Shown: piece by piece, positions 5,275-25,504 of the stretch
How positions within the stretch are numbered: position 1 is the stretch's first letter
How the letters are laid out: every line of letters starts with the position of its first letter
Virus record (IMG/VR): IMGVR_UViG_3300006750_001966
Span: 1-27,808 of that record
DNA: 27,808 bases
DNA from: a virus
Direction: 5' to 3' (one strand)
Notes under the pieces: model-generated
What the model was told of the DNA's origin: nothing
The model's database searches: none
The model's input: only the letters and a program-made list of their open reading frames with translations
Position numbers and translations under genes: made by a program

Positions 5275-5282
5275 AATAACGC

Positions 5283-5311
5283 TTGACAAATGACCCAAAA
5301 TGTTGTATATT
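5283..5311 (+). promoter_or_regulatory. Promoter P1, housekeeping-sigma type, with conserved spacer
   Basis: TTGACA (5283-5288), a 17-base spacer AATGACCCAAAATGTTG, and TATATT (5306-5311). The -35 box is a perfect sigma-70 consensus. The spacer shares CC and AAATGT with three other promoters in this window (9346, 18687, 25449), so this is a repeated phage promoter module, not a chance match. The expected transcription start is at or next to the ATG at 5318, seven bases past the -10 box. Confidence 0.88.
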
Positions 5312-5317
5312 ATATGT

Positions 5318-5599
5318 ATGGTTGAAAAGAAAGAAAAAGTTTCTGATCCGATACAAGAAGTATTTGAAGAAGTTCAGAACTTCAAGAAAAGAGGGATCGC
5401 CACGATCCTGTTAACTATTCCACAAATCGAAGAGATATTGGACGCTGCTGGCTATTCTGCCACAGACCCTATAATGATAGACTATCTTGCAAGGTCCGCG
5501 CATGAAGCGGAGAATAAGGGGTCTAATCTCCGTATGAAAACCCAAGAAAATCTTGATAAAAATAAGAAGAAACTTCTTAAAAAGGGTAAACAAGTATGA
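5318..5599 (+). CDS. Hypothetical protein, first gene after promoter P1
   Basis: About 93 residues if started at the ATG at 5318 (MVEKKEKVSD); an in-frame ATG at 5300 lies inside the promoter spacer and is very unlikely to be transcribed. The protein is helical and charged with a lysine-rich tail (NKKKLLKKGK). No family is recognised. Because the start codon is about seven bases after the -10 box, the mRNA would be leaderless or nearly so, which is unusual. Its position directly after a strong promoter suggests early expression, a common setting for host-takeover proteins (inference). Confidence 0.68.
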   Translation: MVEKKEKVSDPIQEVFEEVQNFKKRGIATILLTIPQIEEILDAAGYSATDPIMIDYLARSAHEAENKGSNLRMKTQENLDKNKKKLLKKGKQV

Positions 5600-8591: not shown

Positions 8592-8762
8592 ATCTGGTGT
8601 AGTCCTTTGGTCGCATTAGGACGAGGGAAGCGTATCGGATACGACAATGTTGTCATTCTCACTGACGGGACAATGGCAACACCTTCCAGCTGAAGGCTAA
8701 TTGATTACGGCCGACAAACCGCGTCAGGGACCGGTAACGTAGATTAGTAACAGCTCATTGAA
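8592..8762 (+). ncRNA. Candidate structured RNA or structured 5' leader
   Basis: A 171-base gap with no convincing gene, about 49% G+C (84 of 170 bases from 8591), clearly richer than its AT-rich surroundings. It contains several hairpins: GTCCT/AGGAC (8602-8606 with 8618-8622), CGTAT/ATACG (8631-8643), TGTTGTCATT with AATGGCAACA (8648-8657 with 8672-8681, ten pairs including one wobble), and CCTTC/GAAGG (8682-8686 with 8692-8696). GACAA occurs twice (8643-8647 and 8669-8673), each able to pair with TTGTC at 8650-8654, so alternative folds are possible. It could be a stable RNA or a leader controlling the HTH/HAD genes. I do not recognise a known RNA family. Confidence 0.45.
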
Positions 8763-8942
8763 ATGGAAGGAAGTCAGCGACATTCGATTGTGGAGCGCTT
8801 GAAGGGAATTATTACTGATATTGTAGATGATGATTTAGTAGTTATGAGAAAACAAGGTAAAAGTTGGAGAGAGATAGGACGTATCACAAATATTCCATTC
8901 ACGACAGTGAGAAGAAGAGTTAATGAAAAGATTTGTATTTGA
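8763..8942 (+). CDS. Small helix-turn-helix protein overlapping the HAD gene
   Basis: A 59-residue frame. Its C-terminal half reads GKSWREIGRITNIPFTTVR, a good helix-turn-helix (helix, tight turn, recognition helix) of the resolvase/sigma-like type. The first 28 residues are helical and acidic. It overlaps the start of the HAD gene by 20 bases in another frame. No strong Shine-Dalgarno precedes the ATG at 8763; an internal ATG at 8842 would give a minimal HTH peptide. A very similar mini-HTH frame lies before the polymerase gene at 18727, which raises confidence that both are real. It may be a DNA-binding regulator. Confidence 0.5.
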   Translation: MEGSQRHSIVERLKGIITDIVDDDLVVMRKQGKSWREIGRITNIPFTTVRRRVNEKICI

Positions 8943-9255
8943 CCTTGATGGGACTTTGGTGAAAACAATGGGTAATGATTACAGAAGCTCAGTACCAATT
9001 TGGAAAGCTATTGCTAAGGTGAATGCTCTTTTCGATGCTGGTCATTGGATTATTATTGATACTGCCCGTGGTGGTACTTCCGGTATTAATTGGAAAGAGT
9101 TTACTGCCAAACAATTAGAAGAGTTTGGAATACAGTATCACGAATTGATCGTTGGTTCTAAACTATCCGCTGATTACTTTATTGACGATAAAGGTATCAA
9201 CGTTCAAGATTGGTTGGAAAACGAAGAAGAAGCATTAGCAAAAGTAGTTACGTAA
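8923..9255 (+). CDS. Small HAD-superfamily phosphatase
   Basis: 110 residues, a minimal HAD fold without a large cap domain. Motif I is FDLDGT (Asp7 nucleophile, Asp9 acid/base), motif II is the Thr in IIDTARGG, and motif III/IV is a Lys near residue 80 followed by YFIDDKG (acidic pair binding magnesium). It would dephosphorylate a small molecule, possibly a sugar phosphate or nucleotide, or a nucleic acid end. A link to the missing heptose-bisphosphate phosphatase step of the left block is conceivable but not shown. The start at 8923 lies inside the preceding HTH frame. Confidence 0.82.
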   Translation: MKRFVFDLDGTLVKTMGNDYRSSVPIWKAIAKVNALFDAGHWIIIDTARGGTSGINWKEFTAKQLEEFGIQYHELIVGSKLSADYFIDDKGINVQDWLENEEEALAKVVT

Positions 9256-9260
9256 CGACA

Positions 9261-9334
9261 GCGGATGAAACTTATTTGGTAAAGCACTTGATTTTCAATC
9301 AAGATTCTTATGGGTTCGATTCCTATTATCCACT
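9261..9334 (+). tRNA. tRNA-Glu-like gene, anticodon TTC
   Basis: A cloverleaf can be drawn. The anticodon arm is CTTGA-TTTTCAA-TCAAG (9287-9303) with anticodon TTC. The T arm is ATGGG-TTCGATT-CCTAT (9310-9326). The D loop ATTTGGTA has the conserved GG and sits on CTT/AAG. The acceptor is GCGGATG with TATCCAC (9261-9267 with 9327-9333). Irregularities: a C-A mismatch in the acceptor, an A-C at the first D-stem pair, A in place of the near-universal T8, a six-base variable loop, and no encoded CCA. So it may be a degenerate or unusual tRNA. The downstream promoter starts 12 bases later. Confidence 0.55.
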
Positions 9335-9345
9335 CTATTTAATGC

Positions 9346-9374
9346 TTGACAAACCCCCTTAAATGTGGTATATT
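9346..9374 (+). promoter_or_regulatory. Promoter P2, same family as P1
   Basis: TTGACA (9346-9351), spacer AACCCCCTTAAATGTGG (17 bases), TATATT (9369-9374). It shares the upstream GC, the CC and AAATGT spacer positions and the downstream ATA with the other three copies. The expected start of transcription coincides with the ATG at 9381. Confidence 0.88.
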
Positions 9375-9380
9375 ATATAT

Positions 9381-9479
9381 ATGAAACAACACAACTCTGA
9401 CCACTACAAGATGATACTTATCGGCACGATTTTGTTTTATATGTGCCTTGCCATAGGTGTCAACCTAATCATTCAGTGA
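9381..9479 (+). CDS. 32-residue membrane peptide directly after promoter P2
   Basis: A 32-codon frame beginning seven bases after the -10 box, so the mRNA would be leaderless. It has a polar N-terminus (MKQHNSDHYK) and one hydrophobic helix (MILIGTILFYMCLAIGVNLI). It ends inside the Shine-Dalgarno area of the next gene (TGAGGAAG), consistent with coupling. No family is recognised. The membrane-like composition and the tight fit between promoter and next gene support a real gene, but it is very short. Confidence 0.5.
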   Translation: MKQHNSDHYKMILIGTILFYMCLAIGVNLIIQ

Positions 9480-9486
9480 GGAAGTA

Positions 9487-9978
9487 ATGCCCCGCGAAAA
9501 GGTTTCAACTCGTAAGAAAACAACACCCCGCAAGAAAGCTGCACCCCGCATTAAAACTCAAGAAACTTTTGAGGAACAGGTAAAGGGAGAATTACAATCT
9601 ACTTCTGGTACACCTGTAGCATCTAGACTTAAAAGGAAGAACAAGAAAGACACTTCTCTTCTTGATGATCCACCTAAAAAAATCAAACCGAAGAAGAAGG
9701 AACCGGCACTACCACGGCCCGAACATTTCTCAAGAGTTTCAGAACTAGATGAAATCAAGTTTGATGAAAAGAAGTTTGTTCTACGGGAATTGTCAAAGAC
9801 ATTGAAGAAGGGTGGCAATGGTGCTTACATTGCTTCGATCTTATATCGTAACATGATTGACTATCTCAAACGTGAACATTTCTATTTGGGTAATGTAGAA
9901 GGTGCTGATAAGACCAAGATCAAGCAAGCACTACAAAAAGATCTAGCTTATGTTAAGACATTGTTGAGGTCTGTCTAA
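9487..9978 (+). CDS. Basic-tailed hypothetical protein
   Basis: 163 residues. The first 80 are low-complexity and very basic with TRKK, TPRKK and KKIKPKKKEP repeats interrupted by a short acidic stretch; the last 80 form a compact helical region (FVLRELSKTLKKGGNGAYIA to VKTLLRSV). The tail is histone-like and probably binds DNA or RNA; no family is recognised. The start is fixed by AGGAAG just upstream. Its stop overlaps the next start by one base. Confidence 0.68.
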   Translation: MPREKVSTRKKTTPRKKAAPRIKTQETFEEQVKGELQSTSGTPVASRLKRKNKKDTSLLDDPPKKIKPKKKEPALPRPEHFSRVSELDEIKFDEKKFVLRELSKTLKKGGNGAYIASILYRNMIDYLKREHFYLGNVEGADKTKIKQALQKDLAYVKTLLRSV

Positions 9979-10265
9979 TGGAATATGATTTAGAATCTAA
10001 TCTTAATCCTGAGTTTACTGATGCGATGAAAATCAAAATCGAAACGGTAAGAGGGTGTATTGAAGTTATTGAGAGTGAATGTAAAATAAAGTTACAGGCA
10101 TTAGAATTAATGAAAGAAGATAGCGATGTAAGAGAGTTGACATTGATACATTATAAAGATGCTATTGAGGCATATTCAAAATCATTGACCACTCTTCTAC
10201 AGAAAGTAATTGACGATTATTCGGACCCAAAAAATGACGACACTCCGCCGGATTTAACGATTTGA
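9978..10265 (+). CDS. Hypothetical helical protein
   Basis: 95 residues, almost wholly predicted helix with regular hydrophobic spacing (IETVRGCIEVIESECKIKL and following), probably a coiled-coil or four-helix oligomer. The C-terminal tail is acidic and proline-containing (DPKNDDTPPD). No family is recognised. It shares an A with the preceding stop (TAATG), placing it in the same translation unit. The 55 bases after it hold only a weak lead to the next gene. Confidence 0.62.
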   Translation: MEYDLESNLNPEFTDAMKIKIETVRGCIEVIESECKIKLQALELMKEDSDVRELTLIHYKDAIEAYSKSLTTLLQKVIDDYSDPKNDDTPPDLTI

Positions 10266-10320
10266 AATATATATTCCCAACAGTGTTTTTTGGAATTGAT
10301 AGGGTCATATTTAGATTACG

Positions 10321-10923
10321 ATGACAAGAATGACAACCAAGAATTATCTTCATAGAATACTATATTTTTTCTCAAGACAAGCTAAAAACTTCTTAGTATT
10401 GTGTCTTGTTATGTTGTGTTTACATCTGTATCATAAAGACATTGTTAGCAAAAGAAGTTGGGGTAATTGCACTAAATCGGCTAGTGGAATGTTTTATGAA
10501 CTTGTTATGGAAATGAATACTACAACAATTTTGAGATTAGAGGTTGAGCGACTTAAGAAACGGTTAGAACTATTAACAGCGACAAGAGTCAAGGTCACGA
10601 TGTATCACCCTGTTTCTAAACAGACCGACAGCACACCAAACATTACAGCTGACGGCACGATCATAAAGATAGATCAGGCAAGTTCATATAGGTATGTAGC
10701 AGTCAGTAGAGATTTGTTGAAGTCGAACGGTGGACATTTGAACTACGGTGACTACGTTGTGTTACAAGGGACTGGCAAGAAAGATGGTTTGTATCAAGTG
10801 AGAGACACAATGGCTCCACGATGGACAAATCGAATTGATATATTAGAGTCTCCATCTGTAGCACCATATAAATTTGAGGAAGCAATGTTGGTGTATGTAA
10901 ATGATATAGTAACTGAAAATTAA
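10321..10923 (+). CDS. Membrane-anchored 3D-domain (double-psi barrel) protein
   Basis: 200 residues. Residues about 22-38 (AKNFLVLCLVMLCLHLY) form a membrane helix after a basic N-terminus, a type II signal anchor. A helical stalk (ILRLEVERLKKRLELL) follows. The C-terminal 110 residues fit the 3D domain found in MltA-like lytic transglycosylases and cell-wall proteins: VTMYHP, NITADGT, VAVSRDLL, YGDYVVLQGTGKKDG and WTNRIDI, including the conserved Asp residues. The domain would face the periplasm and could cleave or bind peptidoglycan. That suits lysis or envelope remodelling, although the gene sits among replication genes. The start is either 10321 or 10330; neither has a strong ribosome site. 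Confidence 0.72.
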   Translation: MTRMTTKNYLHRILYFFSRQAKNFLVLCLVMLCLHLYHKDIVSKRSWGNCTKSASGMFYELVMEMNTTTILRLEVERLKKRLELLTATRVKVTMYHPVSKQTDSTPNITADGTIIKIDQASSYRYVAVSRDLLKSNGGHLNYGDYVVLQGTGKKDGLYQVRDTMAPRWTNRIDILESPSVAPYKFEEAMLVYVNDIVTEN

Positions 10924-10938
10924 ATAGGATAAAGGTTT

Positions 10939-11943
10939 ATGAAAGAAACTGTTTTAATAATTGACATGTTGAATATGTATGTTAGAAACTTCTCGGCCTT
11001 TGCCATTACAAATGACAATGGCGATTTGGTTTCTGGTATCTATGGGAGTCTAGCGTCGATTAGATCATCTATAGAAAAGCACAAGCCTGACCATGTAGTT
11101 ATTGCGTGGGAAGGTGAACAATCCGCAGAACGTCGTCGTAAGACACTATCGTCGTACAAAGAGGGTCGCAAGTTTACTGGTCTAAACAGAAAGTATTTTG
11201 AATACTCTGAAGAAGATGAGAGGGATAGTTTTATACGACAACTGTTGCTTCTTAAAGATTGTTTGGACAACCTACCAGTAACTCAATTAGCAATCAAGTA
11301 TTTAGAAGCTGATGATGTGATTGCCTATCTATGTAAGAAGGTTTTGAAAGATAAGTATGAAAAAATTATCGTTTCAAATGATAAGGATTACTACCAACTA
11401 GTAGACAAGACCACCACCATTTTTAGACCCGTTAAGACAAAAGAGAATCCAACGGGCGAGTATGTTAACTATGAATGGATGATGCAAAATGAGAAGTGTT
11501 ACCCACACAATTATATTCTTGTGAAGGCATTGGTTGGTTGTACGTCCGATAAGATTTTAGGTATTAGTGGTGTTGGTGAGAAGAGTGTTAAGAGAGACTT
11601 CCCTTTCCTGCACGAAGAGACTGAATACGATGTAGATTCAGTCATTGATTTCTCAAAGAAGAATGTCAAGAAGAATAAGAAGTACCAAAAGTATATCGAC
11701 CATGAATCCCTACTCAGAGATAATCAAACTCTCGTCCAACTAGTGGCCCCCGATATAAGTTTGAAGTCGGTAGATACAATTTATAATATCGTAGCAAAAG
11801 GAGAACCAAAGTTTAATCCATACAAGTTTCGTCTTAAGTTAATGTCCGAAGGAATCTCACCCTCTAACATAGACAACTGGATTGGATCGTTTGCAACAAT
11901 TAAACAAACAAGGATGTTACTAAGTGACGGAGAACAAGCATGA
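10939..11943 (+). CDS. rnh: T4 RNase H-like 5'-3' exonuclease (FEN/PIN family)
   Basis: 334 residues; T4 RNase H has 305. LIIDMLNMYVRNF near the N-terminus carries the first metal-binding Asp. ERRRKTLSSYKEGR is the positively charged arch-type segment, YLEADDVIAYLC and VSNDKDYYQLV hold the central acidic cluster, and GISGVGEKSVKR is the helix-3-turn DNA-binding motif after the last Asp (TSDKI). It would remove RNA primers and 5' flaps during lagging-strand synthesis. It overlaps the replicative helicase gene by four bases (ATGA), a sensible pairing. Start: ATG with AAAGG upstream. Confidence 0.88.
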   Translation: MKETVLIIDMLNMYVRNFSAFAITNDNGDLVSGIYGSLASIRSSIEKHKPDHVVIAWEGEQSAERRRKTLSSYKEGRKFTGLNRKYFEYSEEDERDSFIRQLLLLKDCLDNLPVTQLAIKYLEADDVIAYLCKKVLKDKYEKIIVSNDKDYYQLVDKTTTIFRPVKTKENPTGEYVNYEWMMQNEKCYPHNYILVKALVGCTSDKILGISGVGEKSVKRDFPFLHEETEYDVDSVIDFSKKNVKKNKKYQKYIDHESLLRDNQTLVQLVAPDISLKSVDTIYNIVAKGEPKFNPYKFRLKLMSEGISPSNIDNWIGSFATIKQTRMLLSDGEQA

Positions 11944-13301
11944 CGAATGCTGATAATTTTAGTGTTTTTGGATCGAAGGAATTTCAAAATCGAGTTTTGC
12001 AAGGAACGATAACCGATAAGATTTTCTTTGAAAAGATTTTTGAAATTTTGAAAGAAGATTACTTCGTATCCGATGCACATAAGGTTTTGTGGATAGAGAT
12101 AAGGAAACTCTTTAACAAGTATGATTCGCCTCCAACATATGAAATGTTGAGGTTAGAGATTTCCCACTATCCAGAGAGTGACCAGAAAGATGCTACTATT
12201 GAGGTCTTAAAAGATATTGAAAAGAAAGTCAATCGAACAGAAATCGAACACGCTAAGGAAACAGCGTTTGAGTTTTGTAAGAATCAATCAATGAAGAATG
12301 CCATTCTTAAGTCAGTCGAATTGCTTAAGGATGGAAAGTTTGAAGAAATCCAAAAGACCATTGAGGATTCTTTGAAGATCACTACGGAACAAGATATTGG
12401 TCATAAGTATTTTGAGTCTCTAAAATCTAGATCTACAGCAAACCATAGACCTAATGCTTGTCCCACAGGATTTGATGCTCTTGATCATCTTGATGTATTG
12501 GATGGTGGGCTAGCTGGTGGCGAGTTAGGTGTTGTAATGGCTCCCACGGGCGTTGGTAAGAGTTTCCTGTTGGTTAACTTTGGTTATGGTGCTCTTGCCG
12601 CTGGTAAGAATGTGATTCATTATACGTTTGAGTTAAGTGAGAATAATATTGGCACACGTTATGATAGTCGTATCACGAAGGTACCGATCAAACAGGTCGT
12701 TTCCAGACTAGGAGAAGTAGAGAAAAAGTTAGCTTCATTCAGTGGCGGAAAACTTATTATCAAAGAGTATCCAACGAAGATCGCAACGGTGAACACTATC
12801 AAGTTTCATATGGGTAGACTTATTTCTTCGGGGTTTGAACCAGACCTAATCATCATTGACTATGGTGATCTTATGAGAAGTCGTAAGGGTTATGAACAAA
12901 AGAGATATGAACTTGAAAGTATCTATGAAGATTTGCGTGGTTTCGCTATGGAAACACGTTTGCCTATCTGGACTGCTACACAGTCTAACAGAGAAGGTTT
13001 CAACGACGATATTATCACAATTGATAAGGTGGGTGAGGCAATTAGTAAGGTTCACGTATCTGACTTCTTCGCTACATTCTCACAAAGGAAGTTTCATATT
13101 GGTAAGAACCGTGCCGGTAAAGCTGGTGTCAACTTTGACATTGATATTGATTATGCTAGAAGTATGATTACTTTGGAACAAGGTAATGCCACACACGGTG
13201 GTATATCTGTCGGAAGCCGCGTCGATCAAATTTTGAATGCACCAGATAAGTTGAGAAATGTTTATGACGAATACAGAGATAAGAAGGATTATGTAACATG
13301 A
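11940..13301 (+). CDS. 41: gp41/DnaB-family replicative helicase
   Basis: 453 residues, close to T4 gp41 (475). The N-terminal 170 residues are helical, as in the DnaB primase-binding domain. The RecA-like core has Walker A APTGVGKS at residues 201-208, HYTFELSENNIGTR (the conserved 'E' helix), Walker B LIIIDYGDL, LPIWTATQSNREGF (sensor), and GEAISKVHVSDFF near the arginine finger. It forms a hexamer that unwinds DNA 5' to 3' on the lagging strand. No separate primase or helicase loader gene was recognised in the window. It follows the exonuclease and precedes small unknown genes, all coupled by ATGA/TAATG overlaps. Confidence 0.92.
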   Translation: MTNADNFSVFGSKEFQNRVLQGTITDKIFFEKIFEILKEDYFVSDAHKVLWIEIRKLFNKYDSPPTYEMLRLEISHYPESDQKDATIEVLKDIEKKVNRTEIEHAKETAFEFCKNQSMKNAILKSVELLKDGKFEEIQKTIEDSLKITTEQDIGHKYFESLKSRSTANHRPNACPTGFDALDHLDVLDGGLAGGELGVVMAPTGVGKSFLLVNFGYGALAAGKNVIHYTFELSENNIGTRYDSRITKVPIKQVVSRLGEVEKKLASFSGGKLIIKEYPTKIATVNTIKFHMGRLISSGFEPDLIIIDYGDLMRSRKGYEQKRYELESIYEDLRGFAMETRLPIWTATQSNREGFNDDIITIDKVGEAISKVHVSDFFATFSQRKFHIGKNRAGKAGVNFDIDIDYARSMITLEQGNATHGGISVGSRVDQILNAPDKLRNVYDEYRDKKDYVT

Positions 13302-13546
13302 TAGAAAAATTTACGATTATGAGAACCCGTCGATGGGGTAACTCTCATACAGAAGTTTCAACAGCAATGGTTTTGATGAGAAACAAACACTCAGCAGATG
13401 ATGCCAGAATCATGGCAAACAGAATGCTTGAGCAAGAAGTGATGGGAACAAATGTTGAGATTGAGTTTGAAGTTTTACACGCTAAAGAAAACGGTAACGT
13501 TGATGTGATCCATCATGCTGAGAGAAAAGGTACGAAGAGTCTGTAA
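13298..13546 (+). CDS. Hypothetical protein
   Basis: 82 residues, soluble, with a likely beta strand (KFTIMRTRRWG), an Ala/Met-rich helix (SADDARIMANRMLEQEV) and a second strand (VEIEFEVLHA). No family is recognised. It begins within the ATGA overlap at the helicase stop and ends by sharing a base with the next start, so it is embedded in the replication operon. Confidence 0.65.
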   Translation: MIEKFTIMRTRRWGNSHTEVSTAMVLMRNKHSADDARIMANRMLEQEVMGTNVEIEFEVLHAKENGNVDVIHHAERKGTKSL

Positions 13547-13788
13547 TGCCAACGTACACTTTTAGTTGTGCGACATGTGAAAATGGTTTTGACCAAGCAC
13601 TCACCTTTAAGGAATATGATAGATTTAAGAATGAGGGTGAGGATCAATTGAAAGTTAAGTGCCCTAAGTGTCGTGAGTATTATGCTGTTGTAAGAACGTA
13701 TGAAAGCGCTCCCGGTGTTCACTTCGGCAAAGGTTTTTTCAAAGACGGTTATGAATCCGCTAAAAACGTAATAAAGAAAGAAGAGTAA
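13546..13788 (+). CDS. FmdB-like zinc-ribbon protein
   Basis: 80 residues. The MPTYTFSCATC start and CPKC (Cys8, Cys11, Cys39, Cys42) match the FmdB/CxxC_CxxC_SSSS zinc-ribbon family, whose members begin MPxYxYxCxxC and end with a GxGFY-like segment; here that segment is FGKGFFKDGYES. Bacterial members are named as putative regulators, but their function is poorly known. It starts in a one-base overlap with the preceding gene. Confidence 0.78.
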   Translation: MPTYTFSCATCENGFDQALTFKEYDRFKNEGEDQLKVKCPKCREYYAVVRTYESAPGVHFGKGFFKDGYESAKNVIKKEE

Positions 13789-14180
13789 TGGTTATTCAAG
13801 AATGGAAGTTTAATCAAGACGAGTTTGAAACCCAGCTACACGTATCTTATAATGTGTGTTTAGAAAAACTTTTAAATGATGACATTATAGATCAGTATCA
13901 ATTTGAAGAGGCATATCGTTATGCTCCTAGAGTTTTGGTTGCTGATACTCTTGTCGGTTGGTTGAAGAAGAAGTTGTTTCCTGAAGAAAATACTGCTGGC
14001 AAAGGTAAACATATCTGTGTTAGGTTGTATGATACATATGAAGAAGATGTTGAGGATGAAGGTGACGCAGCAATCCACGACGGCCCAGAAGAAGATTTTG
14101 TATCTCTCTTCAGAGAAGAAAACCTTAGTGGTGATATTAAGTTGGGTGAAACAAATAATGAAAATAGTTCTGGCATTTAA
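13788..14180 (+). CDS. Hypothetical acidic protein
   Basis: 130 residues. Residues 1-65 look like a compact helical domain (YNVCLEKLLNDDIIDQY and DTLVGWLKKKLFP). From about residue 80 the chain is strongly acidic (YEEDVEDEGDAA, GPEEDF) and probably disordered. No motif is recognised. Overlaps of one base on each side bind it to the FmdB-like and FkbM genes. Confidence 0.65.
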   Translation: MVIQEWKFNQDEFETQLHVSYNVCLEKLLNDDIIDQYQFEEAYRYAPRVLVADTLVGWLKKKLFPEENTAGKGKHICVRLYDTYEEDVEDEGDAAIHDGPEEDFVSLFREENLSGDIKLGETNNENSSGI

Positions 14181-14977
14181 TGATCTACGAAGTCCAAAAC
14201 AAAGTTAAGTTAGATCTACCACCTGAACACGAAGGTATTATCACAGCATATAATACTGAGTGGGATGATAAGAATGGTCAAGGGTGGGAGATAAAAAACT
14301 TTATCGACTTGACCGAAAATAAAAAGTGTTTGTTTGATGTGGGAGGAAACGTTGGTTTCTTCTCACATGTTTTTGTTAACAACAATGCTGAAGAAACCGA
14401 TAAGATATCTTTTTGTTTTGAGCCGTCACCGTGGGGAACAAATATTTGTTTTGAGATTTTGAATCACAACGGTCAACACGATAGAATCAAAGTGTTTCCT
14501 CATTTTGTTGGTGACACAAATGGTGAAGCAGGTGTTCTTCTAGAAGAGAAGTCTCATACTTTTGTCGTCGAATATGAAAAGGAAATTCCTAACTTTGTCG
14601 TTAGTAAAACTGGTGACCAACAAAAGACAACACTCGTAACCCTTGATGCCTTTTCAGATTTTGTCGATAGAGAAGCTGGTTTAGAATTAGATACAATCAA
14701 AATTGATGTAGAAGGATATGAGTATAAAGTGTTAGTAGGGTCTATCAAAACGATTATGAAATATAGGCCCTTGATTTTTTTGGAGGTTCATAGTTATATG
14801 TTGAATCTGTATAATGCTACAACACTAGATATATATCAACATATGGCCGGATTGAATTATCAAGTGTTTGATATTCATATGAATGAAATAGTAACCGATG
14901 AACAATACTTAGACTTATTTGAAAACATTTTAGAGGCACGATTCGTATGTAGCCCAAGGGAGAAGAAACTTGTCTAA
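14180..14977 (+). CDS. FkbM-family SAM methyltransferase
   Basis: 265 residues. FDVGGNVGFFSHVF is the SAM-binding motif I, FCFEPSPWG is the FkbM strand-2 motif with the acidic residue, VTLDAFSDF and IKIDVEGYEYKVLVG are the diagnostic FkbM core (D-x-E-G-x-E), and PLIFLEVHSY follows. FkbM enzymes O-methylate sugars, glycans and secondary metabolites. Its place inside the nucleotide/replication operon, far from the sugar block at 1-5274, is unexpected; it may still act on the same glycan. Its end overlaps the reductase start by 8 bases. Confidence 0.85.
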   Translation: MIYEVQNKVKLDLPPEHEGIITAYNTEWDDKNGQGWEIKNFIDLTENKKCLFDVGGNVGFFSHVFVNNNAEETDKISFCFEPSPWGTNICFEILNHNGQHDRIKVFPHFVGDTNGEAGVLLEEKSHTFVVEYEKEIPNFVVSKTGDQQKTTLVTLDAFSDFVDREAGLELDTIKIDVEGYEYKVLVGSIKTIMKYRPLIFLEVHSYMLNLYNATTLDIYQHMAGLNYQVFDIHMNEIVTDEQYLDLFENILEARFVCSPREKKLV

Positions 14978-17261
14978 CAAGATTGAACAATTAACAGAAT
15001 ATTATGGTGGTGATAATTTGGCAGCTAGTGTTTTGGCTGACAAATATTTGCTTGATGGTGAAAACACACCGGAAGAAATGTGGCAACGTATAGCTGTCGC
15101 TGCAGGTGATATTGATACTGAGTCAAAGGTGTGGAGCCAAAAGTTTTATGATCTATTATCAGACTTCAAATTCATTCCCGGTGGCCGTATCATGTATGCC
15201 CTTGGTAGAGAAGAAAAGGTTAGCAATACAAATTGTTATGTGATTCCCCACAAGGAAGATTCCATTGAAGGCATCTACGATTGGATGAAGGAATCTGCTC
15301 TTACGTATCGTTCAACAGGTGGAGTAGGTACGGACATATCTATTCTCCGTCCGAAAGGAACTCCTGTAAAGAACTCTGGCGGTGTCTCTCCCGGTGCTTG
15401 TTCATTCATGGACCTCATGTCCAACAGTACTAACACAGTCCACCAGAAGTTACGTAGAGGCGCTCTGATGATAACGATCAACGTACATCACCCCGATGTA
15501 TTAGATTTTATCAATATCAAGAAGATTCTTGGTGAGATACAGTATTTAGAAGGAGAGGGTGACGGACACAACAATCTATATAAGATGGTTGAACACGCCA
15601 ACATTTCAGTACAAATTACTGATGAGTTTCTAGAAGCATTAGAAAGTGGTAAGAATTATGAACAACGCTGGCCCGTTGATGGTACACCTTCTGTAAAGAA
15701 GAAAGTTTCCGCCAAGAAAATATGGGATGCAATTATTAAGAATGCACACGAGCACGCTGAGCCGGGAATATTCTTCATAGACAACCATAGAAAAAATGAT
15801 GCACTTCATTATGTGAATCCAGCTATTACTACGAATCCTTGTGGTGAACAATTTCTAGGAGCGTATGCTAACTGTTTGTTGGGTCATATGAATTTGGATA
15901 GATATGCTCGAATTGAATCAAACAGTAATGAAGTAACGTTTGATTTTGGTGATTTTGCAAACGATATCAAAACAGCGGTAAGGTTTCTCGACAACTGTAT
16001 AGACTGGAATAAGGGGAAACATGCTCTGCCGCAACAAGAAGAAACTGCACTTAATGAAAGACGTATTGGATTGGGAATCACTGGTTTGGCTGATTGTCTT
16101 ATTAGACTTGGTATCAAATATGATTCTGAAAAAGCTCTTGAGTTAGTAGAAAAAGTTATGAAAGTTTATCGTGACTCTGCTTATGAAACATCTGTTGAGT
16201 TAGCTGAAGAAAAGGGTGCGTTTCCTTGGTGGGAAGTTGCTAATTGGAAGAGTGAGTTTATAACAAATTGGATGGGTGGAGTGTCTGCACAGACTGTAGA
16301 CAAGTGTCATAAGAGCGGCATCCGCAATTCATTCCTACTCACAGTCGCTCCCGTAGGTAGTGGTAGCATCATTGGTCAGGTATCGTCAGGTATCGAACCT
16401 ATCTTTGCTACGTCCTATACTAGACGAGTTAGACAACAGGATGGCAAGGCGTTCAAGGAGTTTAAAACGTATCCAAAAATCATTAATGAAATGTTCACGG
16501 ATGATAGTGCCCTTCCAAAGCATGTTGTCACCGCCCACGATGTTGATCCTTACTTCAGAGTCAAACTACAAGCAGTCATTCAAAAGTATGTAGACAACAG
16601 TATTTCATCTACTGTTAATCTGCCCAACGAAACCAAACCAGAAACCATTGCTGACATTTATGTTAATGCTTGGAAACTGGGCCTTAAGAGTATTACGGTA
16701 TATAGAGAAGGAAGCCGTGAAGGTGTTTTAATTACAGAACCTAAGAAGTCTCCACTCCCTGAACCTAAACAAAGACCAAAACGACCAATCGTTATTCAGG
16801 GTAAGACTTTTAAGATTCCATCTGGCCCCGATGAGAAACTATACATAACAATTAATCCGTTTCCAGACAATCCAGAAATGCCTTATGAGATATTTATTTC
16901 CAGCTATGGAGCAGACAACCCTGAGATCCAGACGATCACTGTGTTGCTTTCTGCTCTTATGAAAAATGTAGATGATATTTCGTTTGTAATCGAACATTTA
17001 AAGAAGATTGAATCTTCTGCTGCTCCTGTATGGTGGCATGATGTAGATGCTGGTAGGAGACATACAATAACATCACGAGCACAAGCAGTTGCTATTGCTC
17101 TTGAGAAGTTTGTTATGAATGGAGAATATGCTAACTCTAATCCGTTGAAAGAGGAAGATGTGTCAAAGTTAGAGAAGTGTCCTAAGTGTGCTCAACAAAC
17201 ATGGAAGAATGAGAATGGGTGTGGTTCGTGTATAGAATGTGGTCATGCAAGGTGTAATTAG
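14970..17261 (+). CDS. nrdJ: Class II (adenosylcobalamin-dependent) ribonucleotide reductase
   Basis: 763 residues, TTG start at 14970 with GGGAG upstream; no suitable ATG is near. Catalytic NPCGEQ at residues 289-294 gives Asn289, Cys291 (thiyl radical) and Glu293; the redox pair is Cys89 (NTNCYV) and Cys302 (YANCLLGHMN). VAPVGSGSIIGQVSSGIEP and SITVYREGSREGVL match NrdJ. After that comes a TSCPD-like domain (LYITINPFPDNPEMPYEIFI) and a Cys-rich tail (Cys737, 740, 751, 754, 757, 762) that probably relays electrons. There is no N-terminal ATP cone and no paired tyrosines of class I. It makes deoxynucleotides without oxygen and depends on host B12. Confidence 0.9.
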   Translation: MSNKIEQLTEYYGGDNLAASVLADKYLLDGENTPEEMWQRIAVAAGDIDTESKVWSQKFYDLLSDFKFIPGGRIMYALGREEKVSNTNCYVIPHKEDSIEGIYDWMKESALTYRSTGGVGTDISILRPKGTPVKNSGGVSPGACSFMDLMSNSTNTVHQKLRRGALMITINVHHPDVLDFINIKKILGEIQYLEGEGDGHNNLYKMVEHANISVQITDEFLEALESGKNYEQRWPVDGTPSVKKKVSAKKIWDAIIKNAHEHAEPGIFFIDNHRKNDALHYVNPAITTNPCGEQFLGAYANCLLGHMNLDRYARIESNSNEVTFDFGDFANDIKTAVRFLDNCIDWNKGKHALPQQEETALNERRIGLGITGLADCLIRLGIKYDSEKALELVEKVMKVYRDSAYETSVELAEEKGAFPWWEVANWKSEFITNWMGGVSAQTVDKCHKSGIRNSFLLTVAPVGSGSIIGQVSSGIEPIFATSYTRRVRQQDGKAFKEFKTYPKIINEMFTDDSALPKHVVTAHDVDPYFRVKLQAVIQKYVDNSISSTVNLPNETKPETIADIYVNAWKLGLKSITVYREGSREGVLITEPKKSPLPEPKQRPKRPIVIQGKTFKIPSGPDEKLYITINPFPDNPEMPYEIFISSYGADNPEIQTITVLLSALMKNVDDISFVIEHLKKIESSAAPVWWHDVDAGRRHTITSRAQAVAIALEKFVMNGEYANSNPLKEEDVSKLEKCPKCAQQTWKNENGCGSCIECGHARCN

Positions 17262-17272
17262 AGAGGAATCCT

Positions 17273-17692
17273 ATGTCTAAGACTAGAGGTGTCATCACCG
17301 GCATTAACAGACGTATAAGACAAGAAGAACATGAAAATGAACTCAAAGAAAAACAGACAGAAAAAATGAAAGCATATGCAACTCAATACGAAGAAGAAAG
17401 ATACAAAACGGAGGCAACGAAACAACATGAACGTCATCGTAGAAACCAAAAACGAAAGGCTTACTCTGTGAATATACCAATCCAGCCCGCAAAGAAGTAT
17501 GTGGTTAAACCAGGCACATACTTTTATGGCACTTTGCGCAAGCTGGCCGAGGATTTTAAAACAATAGAAGAAATGAGTAAGTATTTTACATCTGGTCAAC
17601 TGATAAAGTATGAAGAACGAAATGGAAAGTTGTGGAACAACAAAACTGAAAAGATGGTTTATGATCCTACAACTGGAGAATGTAACGAATAA
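17273..17692 (+). CDS. Hypothetical basic coiled-coil protein
   Basis: 139 residues. Residues 15-65 form a highly charged helix (RIRQEEHENELKEKQTEKM and on), likely a coiled coil or single helix. The C-terminal 65 residues are a small mixed domain (GTYFYGTLRKLAEDFKTIE, LIKYEERNGKLWNN). No family is recognised. Start: ATG with AGAGGAAT upstream. One-base overlap with the next gene. Confidence 0.65.
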   Translation: MSKTRGVITGINRRIRQEEHENELKEKQTEKMKAYATQYEEERYKTEATKQHERHRRNQKRKAYSVNIPIQPAKKYVVKPGTYFYGTLRKLAEDFKTIEEMSKYFTSGQLIKYEERNGKLWNNKTEKMVYDPTTGECNE

Positions 17693-18033
17693 TGAAAGTG
17701 ATTATAGCTGGCGGCCGTAACTTTCACACATATAGTGTTGTTAAGAAAGCTATAGAAGAGTCTGGTTATCCAATAACAGAGGTTGTTTGTGGTTGTGCCG
17801 ATGGAGTTGATTCATTAGGAGAACTCTGGGCAAAGCAAAACAATATACCAATCTCTAGATTTCCTGCTGACTGGAATAAATTTGGTCGTGGCGCCGGCCC
17901 TATTAGAAATCAACAAATGGCTGAATATGCTGAAGGGTTGATTGCTGTATGGAACGGTAAGAGTAGGGGGACAGGAGATATGGTTACACGTGCAAATAAT
18001 GAAAAGTTGAGTCTATTCATTCAGCGTGTTTAA
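17692..18033 (+). CDS. SLOG-domain protein (YspA/DUF2493-like)
   Basis: 113 residues, a single Rossmann-like SLOG domain. IIAGGRNF at the start, VVCGCADGVDSLGELWA (phosphate/nucleotide loop), FPADWNKFGRGAGPIRNQQM and AVWNGKSRGTGDM are the successive signatures of the YspA/DUF2493 group. The wider SLOG superfamily binds nucleotides or nucleotide-derived ligands; related families act in signalling, cytokinin release and DNA uptake. In phages this group is common but of unknown role; sensing or removing a nucleotide signal during infection is a reasonable guess, not shown. One-base overlap with the preceding gene. Confidence 0.82.
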   Translation: MKVIIAGGRNFHTYSVVKKAIEESGYPITEVVCGCADGVDSLGELWAKQNNIPISRFPADWNKFGRGAGPIRNQQMAEYAEGLIAVWNGKSRGTGDMVTRANNEKLSLFIQRV

Positions 18034-18047
18034 CTTGAGGAAAATCA

Positions 18048-18263
18048 ATGGGCGTTAAAATAAAAAGAGTATGTGACAGATGCTTGATAGAAGAAAAAGA
18101 AGAATTTTTTATTAACAGAGAAGATATCAAAGGTGCAAGGAAATGCATTGAAATCGGATACATGGTTGATTGGTTGTGTCTCATCTGCAAGAAGAACAAA
18201 AAATTGTTGGGAGAATCTGTAGACCCAACGATAGAAGGCGAAACAGAAAATGGAGTGGAGTGA
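18048..18263 (+). CDS. Small zinc-ribbon protein
   Basis: 71 residues with two CxxC pairs, Cys9/Cys12 (RVCDRCLIEE) and Cys44/Cys47 (WLCLICKKN), forming a probable zinc ribbon. The tail is acidic. No function can be assigned. Start: ATG with GAGGAAA upstream. It overlaps the dCMP deaminase gene by 14 bases. This is the third small zinc-ribbon gene in the window (others at 3181 and 13546). Confidence 0.72.
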   Translation: MGVKIKRVCDRCLIEEKEEFFINREDIKGARKCIEIGYMVDWLCLICKKNKKLLGESVDPTIEGETENGVE

Positions 18264-18690
18264 TTACTTCATACGTATAGCAAATCAAGTAAAGTTTAAA
18301 TCAAAAGATAGAAACACTCAGATAGGTGTGGTGTTGGTAGGTGAAGATAATGAGATTGTTTCTACCGGTTATAATTCCTTCCCTAGAGGTATAATAGATG
18401 GTATACCAGAAAGACAAAAAAGACCTGAGAAATATTATTGGTTCGCTCACGCTGAACTTAACAGCATCGTCAATGCCGCACGTATTGGTGTATCCACAAA
18501 AAACACAGTAATGTATATGACCTGTAGTATTCCGTGTTGTGATTGTGCTCAAGCAATCATAAATGCTGGTATCAAGAAGGTGATTTGCAATTCAGTTTCT
18601 TCCACTAAAGGAGATCAGTGGGAAGAGAAAATGAAACGTAGCATTCAAATGTTTGAAGAAGCAGGAGTGGAAGTAGTATATTATGCTTGA
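18250..18690 (+). CDS. cd: dCMP (deoxycytidylate) deaminase
   Basis: 146 residues. The zinc-binding and catalytic motif HAE is at residues 67-69 and the PCxxC motif (PCCDC, Cys96/Cys99) follows at the correct distance; early segments DRNTQIGVVLV and STGYNSFPRG match the dCMP deaminase family. It converts dCMP to dUMP, feeding thymidylate synthesis; no thymidylate synthase is seen in the window. With the ribonucleotide reductase it makes a precursor-supply pair. The next promoter starts inside its last codon region (TTGACA at 18687 overlaps the TGA stop). Confidence 0.9.
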   Translation: MEWSDYFIRIANQVKFKSKDRNTQIGVVLVGEDNEIVSTGYNSFPRGIIDGIPERQKRPEKYYWFAHAELNSIVNAARIGVSTKNTVMYMTCSIPCCDCAQAIINAGIKKVICNSVSSTKGDQWEEKMKRSIQMFEEAGVEVVYYA

Positions 18691-18715
18691 CAAACACCCC
18701 AAAATGTCGTATATT
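18687..18715 (+). promoter_or_regulatory. Promoter P3 before the polymerase gene
   Basis: TTGACA (18687-18692), spacer AACACCCCAAAATGTCG (17 bases), TATATT (18710-18715). The -35 box overlaps the stop codon of the dCMP deaminase gene (TGA within TTGACA). It shares the CC and AAATGT spacer elements with P1, P2 and P4, and gives the polymerase gene its own transcription start. Confidence 0.88.
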
Positions 18716-18726
18716 ATATAGAAGGA

Positions 18727-18804
18727 ATGTCACTCCGATCAATTGCAAAACATTTTAAGGTAGCTAGAAACACAATAACAGGTAGGTTGAAAAAATATGT
18801 ATGA
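18727..18804 (+). CDS. 25-residue helix-turn-helix mini-ORF overlapping the polymerase gene
   Basis: The frame from ATG 18727 encodes 25 residues containing SLRSIAKHFKVARNTITGRL, a near-ideal helix-turn-helix with Ala at the helix-2 position and a recognition helix of RNTITGRL type. It begins 12 bases after the -10 box, with AAGGA almost touching the ATG, and its TGA overlaps the first codons of the polymerase gene by 8 bases, so translation could be coupled. It closely resembles the C-terminal half of the 59-residue frame at 8763. It could be a truncated relic of a larger DNA-binding protein or a real micro-regulator. Confidence 0.45.
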   Translation: MSLRSIAKHFKVARNTITGRLKKYV

Positions 18805-21800
18805 TTACAGTAAGCCAGTGACAACTTTTACGCACACGCATTGTCATTCGTCATATAGTTTACTAGATGGAATCGGCAAGCCATCTCAGAACGCTAAGAG
18901 AGCTGCTGAAATTGGAATGCAAAGTTTAGCAATTTCAGACCACGGGACATGTGCTGGTCATTATGAGTTTCAGACTGCTTGCGACAAGTATGGTATTAAA
19001 CCAATACTCGGTGCAGAGTTTTATTTCGTTGAGGATAGACACGTCAAATCTCTCACCGACGAAGAAAAAGAGGGAATGACGAAGGAAGAACGTCTTGCCG
19101 AAACGAGAAAGAGGCAAGCAAATCCACATCTAATTTTGCTTGCTGAAAATGATACCGGCTTAAAAAATATTTATCACCTTAATTATCTTGCCGCTAAAGA
19201 AGGTTTCTATGGCAAGCCACGTATTGATCTAGAATTGCTTCGTAAGTATAACGAAGGCATCATTGCCACAACTACGTGTATCATTTCTCCGTGGGCTAAG
19301 TATTATTTCCGTGGTGAAATAGATAAGATGAAAAGTTTGTTTGAAGAAATGTATGATATCTTTGGTAAGGATAGATTCTTCATCGAACTACATCCACACG
19401 AAAAGTTTTCGTATCGCGCTAGCGATAACTCAGACCAACACGCTCAACGTGAATATAATTTCACCATGATTGAGTTGTTCAGGAAACAGTATGACATTCG
19501 TTGCACATTAGCTAACGATGCTCACTACCCTGAGAAGAAACACTCTGGTGTCCACAAATTTATGTTTGCGGTCAATACAAACGGTAAGTATGATGAAACG
19601 TCTTGTAACAATCTCTACATTGCTTCTGAAGAAGATATGAGGGGGTTCTGGCACGACAACGGACATAGTGCTGATATACCGGACGAATACCTAGACGAAG
19701 CGATTGAGACTACCAAAGAGATCGCCTCACGGTGTAATGCCAGAATTGATGTTGACTCTCTGAAGGAACCACAGTTTGAAGTCCCACAGGGATATCTGTC
19801 GAACAAAGAGTATATCCATAAGTTGTTGAAGGATGGTTTGACTGAAAAGATTGATACTGGTCAAATCATTATGGATGATGTTGATATCTATATTGACCGT
19901 ATCAATACAGAGTTGTCTCTGATAGCTGACAAGGGATACGTTGACTACTTCCTTTTGACTAGAGACTTCTGTAACTGGGCGTATGAAGAAAAGATTCTTC
20001 AATCCCCCGGTAGAGGTAGTGCTGCGGGTAGTTTGATTTGTTGGTTGTTAGGAATCACTAGGGTTAATCCTATCAAGTATGATCTATTCTTTGAGAGGTT
20101 TATGAATCCTGAGCGTATCAAGGAACCAGATATTGATAATGACTTTCAGGACAGCGAACGTCAACGTGTGAAGGATTACATTGCTGACCGCTGGGGTAGC
20201 TCAAATATTGCGTCGTGTGCTGCCTATAGTCGATACACAGCAAACACATTGTTTAGAGAAGTGTGTAAACAGTTTGGTGTGGAGTTTTCTCAAGTGAATA
20301 AGATTGCTAAGACAATTAGTGGTCACACATCTTTGAACAAAGACGTTGCATCATTCACAGACATTATGGATAAGAACTCTGACATTAAAGAATTTGTTCA
20401 AGCATTACCAGAGGATGAAGCCAAAGAGTTTGTAAACATTATCGACACCATCATTGGTAATGTTAGGAATGTTACAATCGCAGGTGGAGGTACGATTATT
20501 AGTAGTCAACCTCTACATGAAATGATGCCCCTTCGAGCAAGCAAAGATGAAGGTATCATTACAGAGTGGCAAGTAGATGAGTTAACCAAGATGAAGTTTC
20601 TCAAGATTGATATCTTGGGTATCTCTACGTTGTCGATTATCAAACAGATTATGGATCAAGTAGATATGACGGTCGATGATTTGTATGATATGCCAGTCGA
20701 TAGAGAAGAGTTATCGGAAGATGAACAGGTACACTACGACAGAGCATACGAATTGCTCCAACAAGGTGAGACTCAAGGAATCTTTCAGTTTGGTGGTAGT
20801 AACATTACTAGATGTCTACAGAAGATGATTCCAACAACCTTGGAACACATCGCTGCTGTAAATGCTATCTATCGTCCCGGTGTTATCAAGTCGGGTGCTA
20901 TGGAAGCATTCCTTCGTCGTAGAAACGGTGAAGAGAAAAGTGTGAATGACTACCATCCTATCTTCGATGAGATTTTAGCATCTACTGAAAACATTATGAT
21001 TTATCAAGAGCAATTCATTCAAATGTTTAACAAGTTGGGAATGGATTTTGGTAAGTCAGACATTCTTCGTCGTATCGCTGAGACAGGTGATAAAGATGCT
21101 TGCTACAAGTATCTTGATGACAATCTGTATTGTAATCCTGACGACATGGCTTTGACCGAAAAGCAAACACACGATATTGCCAGTAAGGTAATCGAAGCTG
21201 CTGGTTATCTATTCAACAAGTCTCATGCTATTTCATATTCGTTGTTGGCTTATTGGACTGCCTATATGAAAGCTAAGTATCCTGACAAGTTTATTGAAGT
21301 GATGTTCAATCACCATCATGGTGACCATGACAATCAAGCTATCAATTTGAATATGGCTAAGAAACTATTGGATGAGCCTGAAGTTTCGATAGGGGATATC
21401 AATACGTTCACGAAAGATTATAAGGTGGATGGGAACACTATCAACATTGGTGTGAAGAGCATCAACGGTGTTGGCAACTCTGTGATCAAACGAATCGAAA
21501 CCAATAGACCCACAGGCGGTTGGATAACATTCAGTGAGTTCCATGAGGATAATCATTACAAGAAAATAATCTCATACAAGAACTTACAGATCCTTGTTAA
21601 GCTAGGAATGTTTGATTCAATGTTGATCAATGGTAGTGGAGTTAAGTTGTCAAGAAAAGCATTGTGTGATGTTGTAGAAGTACTTGGTAAACTATCTACG
21701 TTGACGAAAAAGAAACTCAATACTTTCCTTGATACATTGTATGATGGTAAGGTTACTGATAAGAATGTTATAGATGTGCTCAATGCTGAACATCTTACAC

Positions 21801-22249
21801 TCTTGTTAGACGAGTTTGGAATCAACGATGATGAGTTTGAAGAAGATGAACTGCTCGGTTTTGAGATTGATTACTTAGGATTCCGATTGAATGAAGATGT
21901 AGAGAAGAATAACATGCTCAAGAAAATGACTGATGAAATGGGCATCACTCACATTAGTGATTTGGATGAAGAGGGTGGGACTGTTGGTCACCATTGGACA
22001 ATCATTCGGTCAATAGAAAAACTGAAAACCAAGAATGGGAAACCATATGCCAACGTTAGAACAGACGATGGCAGTAGTTTTAGAGTGTGGTGGAACAAAC
22101 TTCAGTATATAGACAACTACCTTGTGCCAGGGAAATTGGTAGTGGTACAACTGAATTCAGATACCTTTGGCAGATCATTAGCTCATGGTAGAATGAGTTT
22201 TATGAATGAGAAAGAAATCATAAAGCTTTACGATCAAGTGAGTGAGTGA
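18797..22249 (+). CDS. dnaE: DNA polymerase III alpha subunit-like polymerase (C family)
   Basis: 1150 residues, almost the length of bacterial DnaE (1160). An N-terminal PHP domain (FTHTHCHSSYSLLDG, AISDHGT, GAEFYF, ANDAHYPEKKHSGVH) appears to keep its metal-binding His and acidic residues, so proofreading by PHP is possible. The palm has PGRGSAAGSL (about 426-435) and the catalytic acids Asp445 and Asp447 (PDIDNDFQ) with Asp605 in KIDILG. QGIFQFGG, YRPGVI and LFNKSHAISYSLLAYWTAY are further DnaE signatures. A C-terminal OB-fold region (GHHWTIIRSIEKLKTKNG) follows. This is the likely phage replicase, in place of the T4-type family B enzyme. Confidence 0.95.
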   Translation: MYDYSKPVTTFTHTHCHSSYSLLDGIGKPSQNAKRAAEIGMQSLAISDHGTCAGHYEFQTACDKYGIKPILGAEFYFVEDRHVKSLTDEEKEGMTKEERLAETRKRQANPHLILLAENDTGLKNIYHLNYLAAKEGFYGKPRIDLELLRKYNEGIIATTTCIISPWAKYYFRGEIDKMKSLFEEMYDIFGKDRFFIELHPHEKFSYRASDNSDQHAQREYNFTMIELFRKQYDIRCTLANDAHYPEKKHSGVHKFMFAVNTNGKYDETSCNNLYIASEEDMRGFWHDNGHSADIPDEYLDEAIETTKEIASRCNARIDVDSLKEPQFEVPQGYLSNKEYIHKLLKDGLTEKIDTGQIIMDDVDIYIDRINTELSLIADKGYVDYFLLTRDFCNWAYEEKILQSPGRGSAAGSLICWLLGITRVNPIKYDLFFERFMNPERIKEPDIDNDFQDSERQRVKDYIADRWGSSNIASCAAYSRYTANTLFREVCKQFGVEFSQVNKIAKTISGHTSLNKDVASFTDIMDKNSDIKEFVQALPEDEAKEFVNIIDTIIGNVRNVTIAGGGTIISSQPLHEMMPLRASKDEGIITEWQVDELTKMKFLKIDILGISTLSIIKQIMDQVDMTVDDLYDMPVDREELSEDEQVHYDRAYELLQQGETQGIFQFGGSNITRCLQKMIPTTLEHIAAVNAIYRPGVIKSGAMEAFLRRRNGEEKSVNDYHPIFDEILASTENIMIYQEQFIQMFNKLGMDFGKSDILRRIAETGDKDACYKYLDDNLYCNPDDMALTEKQTHDIASKVIEAAGYLFNKSHAISYSLLAYWTAYMKAKYPDKFIEVMFNHHHGDHDNQAINLNMAKKLLDEPEVSIGDINTFTKDYKVDGNTINIGVKSINGVGNSVIKRIETNRPTGGWITFSEFHEDNHYKKIISYKNLQILVKLGMFDSMLINGSGVKLSRKALCDVVEVLGKLSTLTKKKLNTFLDTLYDGKVTDKNVIDVLNAEHLTLLLDEFGINDDEFEEDELLGFEIDYLGFRLNEDVEKNNMLKKMTDEMGITHISDLDEEGGTVGHHWTIIRSIEKLKTKNGKPYANVRTDDGSSFRVWWNKLQYIDNYLVPGKLVVVQLNSDTFGRSLAHGRMSFMNEKEIIKLYDQVSE

Positions 22250-25420: not shown

Positions 25421-25448
25421 AAAAACCTCAAAAAATCGACGAAATAGC

Positions 25449-25477
25449 TTGACATTTCTCCTAAAATGTGTTATATT
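25449..25477 (+). promoter_or_regulatory. Promoter P4 before the DNA methyltransferase gene
   Basis: TTGACA (25449-25454), spacer TTTCTCCTAAAATGTGT (17 bases), TATATT (25472-25477). It shares upstream GC, spacer CC and AAATGT with P1-P3. Seven bases after the -10 box there is an ATG (25484) that is closed after two codons (ATG ATT TAA); the real gene starts at 25505 with TGGAGA upstream. Confidence 0.88.
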
Positions 25478-25504
25478 ATAGGTATGATTTAATGGAGAAA
25501 TTCT

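Follow-up and report, generated by a model that had tools for sequence, protein, structure and literature searches.

Short helix-turn-helix-like frames ahead of the HAD phosphatase and DNA polymerase III genes of a virus may be remnants of mobile genes

The DNA analysed here (the window) comes from IMG/VR and is a 27.8 kb fragment of a marine phage. The two ATG frames described for it in the first-pass annotation, of 59 and 25 amino acids, were both present, and each overlaps the start of the next enzyme gene, HAD phosphatase (start at 8923) by 20 nt and DNA polymerase III alpha (Pol III; start at 18797) by 8 nt. The features of the two junctions are listed in Table 1. No match to the window was obtained among phage records with Megablast, and the nearest named phage in protein searches was Microcystis phage Mel-JY01, with about 40% identity over RecA and DnaB. 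Relatives were found by DnaB profiles and then by RecA and Pol III profiles; they showed 50-75% identity, the closest about 72%, and had the gene order ssb-recA-exo-dnaB-(rnr)-o139-dcd-pol in common. Contigs of the same virus (L002, L003 and L004/L008) were more than 99.8% identical to the window. The frames are not assembly errors, because they were present and free of SNPs in the covering contigs (one for the 59-aa frame and two for the 25-aa frame), a result that is uninformative on selection.

Table 1. Features at the two junctions, with positions in the window.
Feature	Position	Strand	Evidence and remarks
Conserved structured RNA, without an Rfam family	8596..8826	+	covariance model; covariation; 3' strand overlaps first ~20 codons of the 59-codon frame
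59-codon frame	8763..8942	+	ATG without Shine-Dalgarno; 5' third within the RNA
HTH-coding stretch LVVMRKQGKSWREIGRITNIPFTTVRRR	8838..8921	+	PF13384 E 3.6e-4; Pfam HTH_SB 5.5e-4; three-helix AF2 model, pLDDT 78.6
HAD phosphatase gene	8923..9255	+	phrog_1238 2.9e-21; missing at the junction in relatives
tRNA gene	9261..9334	+	Rfam RF00005 47.5 bits; anticodon loop UUUUCAA; within the same inserted stretch
Promoter P2	9346..9374	+	TTGACA-17-TATATT
Promoter P3 of Pol III	18687..18715	+	TTGACA-17-TATATT; position kept in many relatives
Putative lineage-specific insertion/replacement in the Pol III leader, bearing the candidate HTH remnant	18721..18796	+	relatives: ~30-nt leader with GGGAG or GGAG
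25-codon frame MSLRSIAKHFKVARNTITGRLKKYV	18727..18804	+	PF13384 E 4.1e-4; PF13936 E 2.7e-5; HTH similarity spans 18715-18798
DNA polymerase III alpha (phage DnaE type)	18797..22249	+	phrog_405 1.1e-240

The structured RNA is located between the small membrane (TM) gene of the recA operon and o163, and is conserved in relatives, with copies at L018:5965-6126, L020:2667-2846, L023:7834-8010, L073:1641-1802 and L092:4722-4898. A covariance model built from five relatives, with the window left out, recovered the window copy at 8596-8845 with 54.8 bits (E 5.8e-9). The structure comprised three stems and a GUCGC/GCGAC pseudoknot; 98% of cells paired in this hand-defined structure, two-sided changes were found in 7 of the 19 pairs, and none of 500 shuffles matched the score. 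Slid controls collapsed, although part of this contrast follows from having derived the structure from these same sequences. The loop domain of the window was larger than those of the relatives. Rfam searches of the structured region from the window and two relatives revealed nothing credible, and a match to the RNA core in a genome contig (L214) was rejected, as it was positioned within a gene read as fliP-like. The RNA is probably a new phage RNA family and probably of greater interest than the HTH frames. Codons 5-21 of the 59-codon frame coincide with its final strands (about 8775-8826), so that the HTH coding proposed for this frame applies to about 8838-8921 but not to codons 1 to ~20, which lie inside the RNA.

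In the relatives, the o163 promoter directly followed the RNA in the order recA-TM gene-RNA-promoter-o163, with no HTH stretch, HAD gene or tRNA, whereas the window contained an inserted block of all three in between. A tblastn search of the relatives found no HAD gene. The tRNA gene was missed by ARAGORN, and by our own reading of its anticodon loop it is a putative tRNA-Glu (UUC).

Where the start of Pol III could be read in relatives, the gene was in most cases preceded by TTGACA-17-TATATT and, after it, a leader of some 30 nt that includes GGAG or GGGAG. The window tracked this promoter consensus up to TATATTATATA and diverged at 18721 into the HTH stretch. No HTH frame was found downstream of the Pol III promoter in the 16 distinct upstream regions of relatives, most of which had the promoter. 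Both HTH stretches of the window thus begin at the end of a conserved element and run across the start of the next gene. Conservation of the peptides in related phages had been proposed as a check, and both stretches were found to be absent at the orthologous junctions. Judged from this comparison, both frames are lineage-specific insertions, because neither the HTH stretches nor HAD occur in the relatives, although these retain RNA, promoter and polymerase.

A different HTH frame was present in one relative, IMGVR_UViG_3300025133_000545 (L203/G014), where 71 codons at L203:1444-1659 lie beside the Pol III promoter. Like the window frame, it is a short HTH-like frame inserted at the dcd-to-pol junction, and it was absent in the close kin L182; in contrast, it is located upstream of the promoter, whereas that of the window is downstream, and homology of the two sequences is not clear. 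HTH scraps probably reached this junction more than once, because this relative has a different HTH frame there that is missing in L182. The insertion in L203, between dcd and the Pol III promoter, consisted of a pyrimidine dimer glycosylase-like gene and the HTH frame, both lacking in L182, and was flanked by the near repeat AAGAAAAGC. We also observed that the TGA stop of the dCMP deaminase gene sits inside the -35 box of the next promoter (gctTGAca, window 18682-18692), as it does at the dcd end in L182 and L203.

Four promoters with the virus-specific spacer AAATGTnG were observed in the window, at 5281-5320 (P1), 9344-9383 (P2), 18685-18729 (P3) and 25447-25486 (P4). The promoter and Shine-Dalgarno rules used throughout were of the E. 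coli type, which is an assumption here. In P1, P2 and P4, an ATG was positioned exactly 7 nt past the -10 box (5318, 9381 and 25484), at the expected transcription start, and this placement suggests that the three mRNAs are leaderless. The frame opened by the P4 ATG runs for two codons and then stops, and a 32-aa membrane-type peptide, MKQHNSDHYKMILIGTILFYMCLAIGVNLIIQ (window 9381-9479), starts at the predicted transcription start of P2.

The two frames had been described as matching peptides with a shared motif beginning G-x-S-x-R. Both places carry the pattern, but it is incomplete in the 25-codon frame, where the G is encoded by GGA at 18724-18726. Because this codon precedes the ATG at 18727, the HTH of the 25-codon frame is cut at the front, and its profile match likewise starts upstream of the ATG, at 18715. 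The two peptides are of a common HTH type, but only 6 of 24 residues were alike and the DNA identity was 39%; the match therefore reflects a shared HTH type and not a demonstrated kinship. On the residue count, a duplicated HTH was rejected as the origin of both frames.

The HTH likeness itself was better than chance. It is real at both places, because an unbiased six-frame search with HTH_23 (PF13384) of 32 records (the window and 31 relatives, 843 kb) returned just the two reported places in the 28 kb window, as against one match in 815 kb of relatives. With HTH_38 (PF13936) and HTH_28 (PF13518), searched in the window and 49 relatives, both frames were again the sole window matches, and the 49 relatives yielded one and three matches, respectively. 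The E values of HTH_23 and HTH_28 ranged from 6e-5 to 4e-4 at both places, and that of HTH_38 was 0.005 at the place not listed for it in Table 1. Matches of the 59-mer in L005/L006 were rejected, as these are unrelated phages with a generic HTH.

An AAGGA Shine-Dalgarno is present at a gap of 0 nt before the ATG at 18727, and none was found at the starts 8763 and 8844. The codon score of the 25-mer was random-like, with 43% of random frames as good, and the 59-mer scored weakly over its HTH part (11% as good); the score of HAD exceeded 1000 of 1000 random frames. The ribosome-binding site and codon bias expected of a functional small regulator gene were not seen in the frames.

We consider it somewhat probable (roughly 55%) that both stretches are remnants of HTH-bearing genes, that the 25-codon frame stems from the HTH at the C-terminus of a mobile gene, and that they now serve mainly as leader. 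This reading fits best because the stretches are absent at the junctions of relatives, the front of one HTH is missing, and convincing starts and coding bias are lacking. The first-pass annotation offered relics of a mobile HTH gene and micro-regulators as alternatives; the former fits best and the latter gained no positive support. Leftovers are likelier than tiny working regulators because related phages lack both stretches.

We infer a mobile nuclease origin, a loss of the 5' part and a present leader role. The parent of the 25-codon frame would plausibly have been a homing endonuclease with an HNH domain and a C-terminal HTH. The HTH ends may have been left behind after loss of the parent gene or of its 5' part, one between the structured RNA and the acquired HAD gene and the other between Pol III and its promoter, and they would now serve mostly as 5' leader that is translated barely or not at all. 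Before HAD (AGAAGAAGAG) and Pol III (AGGTAGG), the only ribosome-binding-like sequence would then come from the purine-rich Arg/Lys codons in the last helix.

Among phage proteins, the 25-mer was best matched by the far C-terminal end of an HNH endonuclease (SLRSIARYF...RLSK...stop). This HNH homing endonuclease of Enterococcus phage EH93P1 (WAX15793.1, annotated as I-HmuI-like) has a C-terminal HTH and ends in SLRSIARYFQCSRQLVTNRLSK...stop, and the 25-codon frame ends in SLRSIAKHFKVARNTITGRLKKYV-stop; the identity was 50% over 26 aa, at E 0.2. The HTH_38 type is common to both, but an HNH domain is missing from the window, which contains no more than the last ~28 codons, and the similarity is weak. 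HNH homing genes next to phage DNA polymerase genes have been reported (PMC10448857). No HNH nuclease motif (PF13392) and no other mobile-gene piece was found in the window. This absence stands against the relic reading, as do several other observations: the HNH similarity covers 26 residues at that E value, and the HTH is a generic motif; neither frame contains a stop and each ends exactly over the next start codon, as translational coupling could also bring about; and the HTH stretch of the 59-codon frame was modelled from its single sequence as a plausible three-helix domain. A search of viral contigs for the parent gene of the 25-mer returned only the same virus and revealed no intermediate genome that still has the complete parent gene.

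Coupling by leader peptides, in which low-level translation of the frames hands ribosomes on to Pol III (overlap ATGTATGA) and to HAD (20-nt overlap) and the HTH origin is now irrelevant, is the alternative that we regard as possible but unlikely. It is consistent with the overlap of each stop with the next start, with a P3 near consensus whose predicted transcription start lies about 5 nt before the ATG at 18727, and with the overlap-type translational coupling known for T4 homing genes (PMC2988022). Against it are the zero-gap Shine-Dalgarno at 18727, the lack of one at 8763, and the AGGTAGG that Pol III itself possesses 9 nt ahead of its start.

That the short open frames resemble an HTH merely by chance is improbable. 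No match reached the Pfam gathering score, the best being 21.7 bits against 27 (HTH_38) and 20.1 against 43 (HTH_SB), and promoter-encoded residues supply part of the extended match of the 25-mer. The exact pattern of the first-pass annotation occurred in none of 150 shuffled windows and nowhere in 1.68 Mb (redundant) of other loci, but it was composed after the fact from these very peptides. In contrast, each of three HTH families picked out both places, with hardly any further match in 0.8-1 Mb.

To an even lesser degree do we favour functional micro-HTH regulators, that is, translated peptides that bind the AAATGTnG spacer. The spacer is common to P1-P4 and was not found in the promoters of relatives, so that spacer and HTH frames are alike confined to this lineage; the HTH likeness is above chance, and repression of its own promoter is known for the homing endonuclease I-TevI (PMC2988022). 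Small viral HTH proteins also exist: SIRV1 ORF55 (PDB 2x48), a tiny viral HTH protein, was among the fold matches and resembled the single-sequence AlphaFold model of the 59-aa peptide in size and three-helix HTH arrangement (TM 0.61). It differs in being a solved protein in its own right, and the match is to a generic fold at a Foldseek E of 2.0; Foldseek returned only generic HTH proteins for the model, all at E above 1. Against this reading, the 25-mer lacks its own first helix and is probably too short for an HTH fold, and its 37-aa extension was modelled from the single sequence as one short and one long helix with no HTH. No Shine-Dalgarno stands at a proper distance, the codon bias is absent or weak, the 59-mer is partly an RNA gene, and conservation among relatives is absent. 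It is highly unlikely that the virus has a private circuit whose two tiny HTH peptides, one of them made from a near-leaderless mRNA of the Pol III promoter, recognise the AAATGTnG common only to its own four promoters.

If both stretches are remnants of HTH-bearing genes, fragments of such genes can persist as leader sequence ahead of essential phage genes, and micro-proteins can be wrongly predicted from such scraps, and from structured RNA, when genes are called by motif alone. The comparison also revealed a conserved structured RNA and promoters with an ATG at the predicted transcription start, which are worth separate study.
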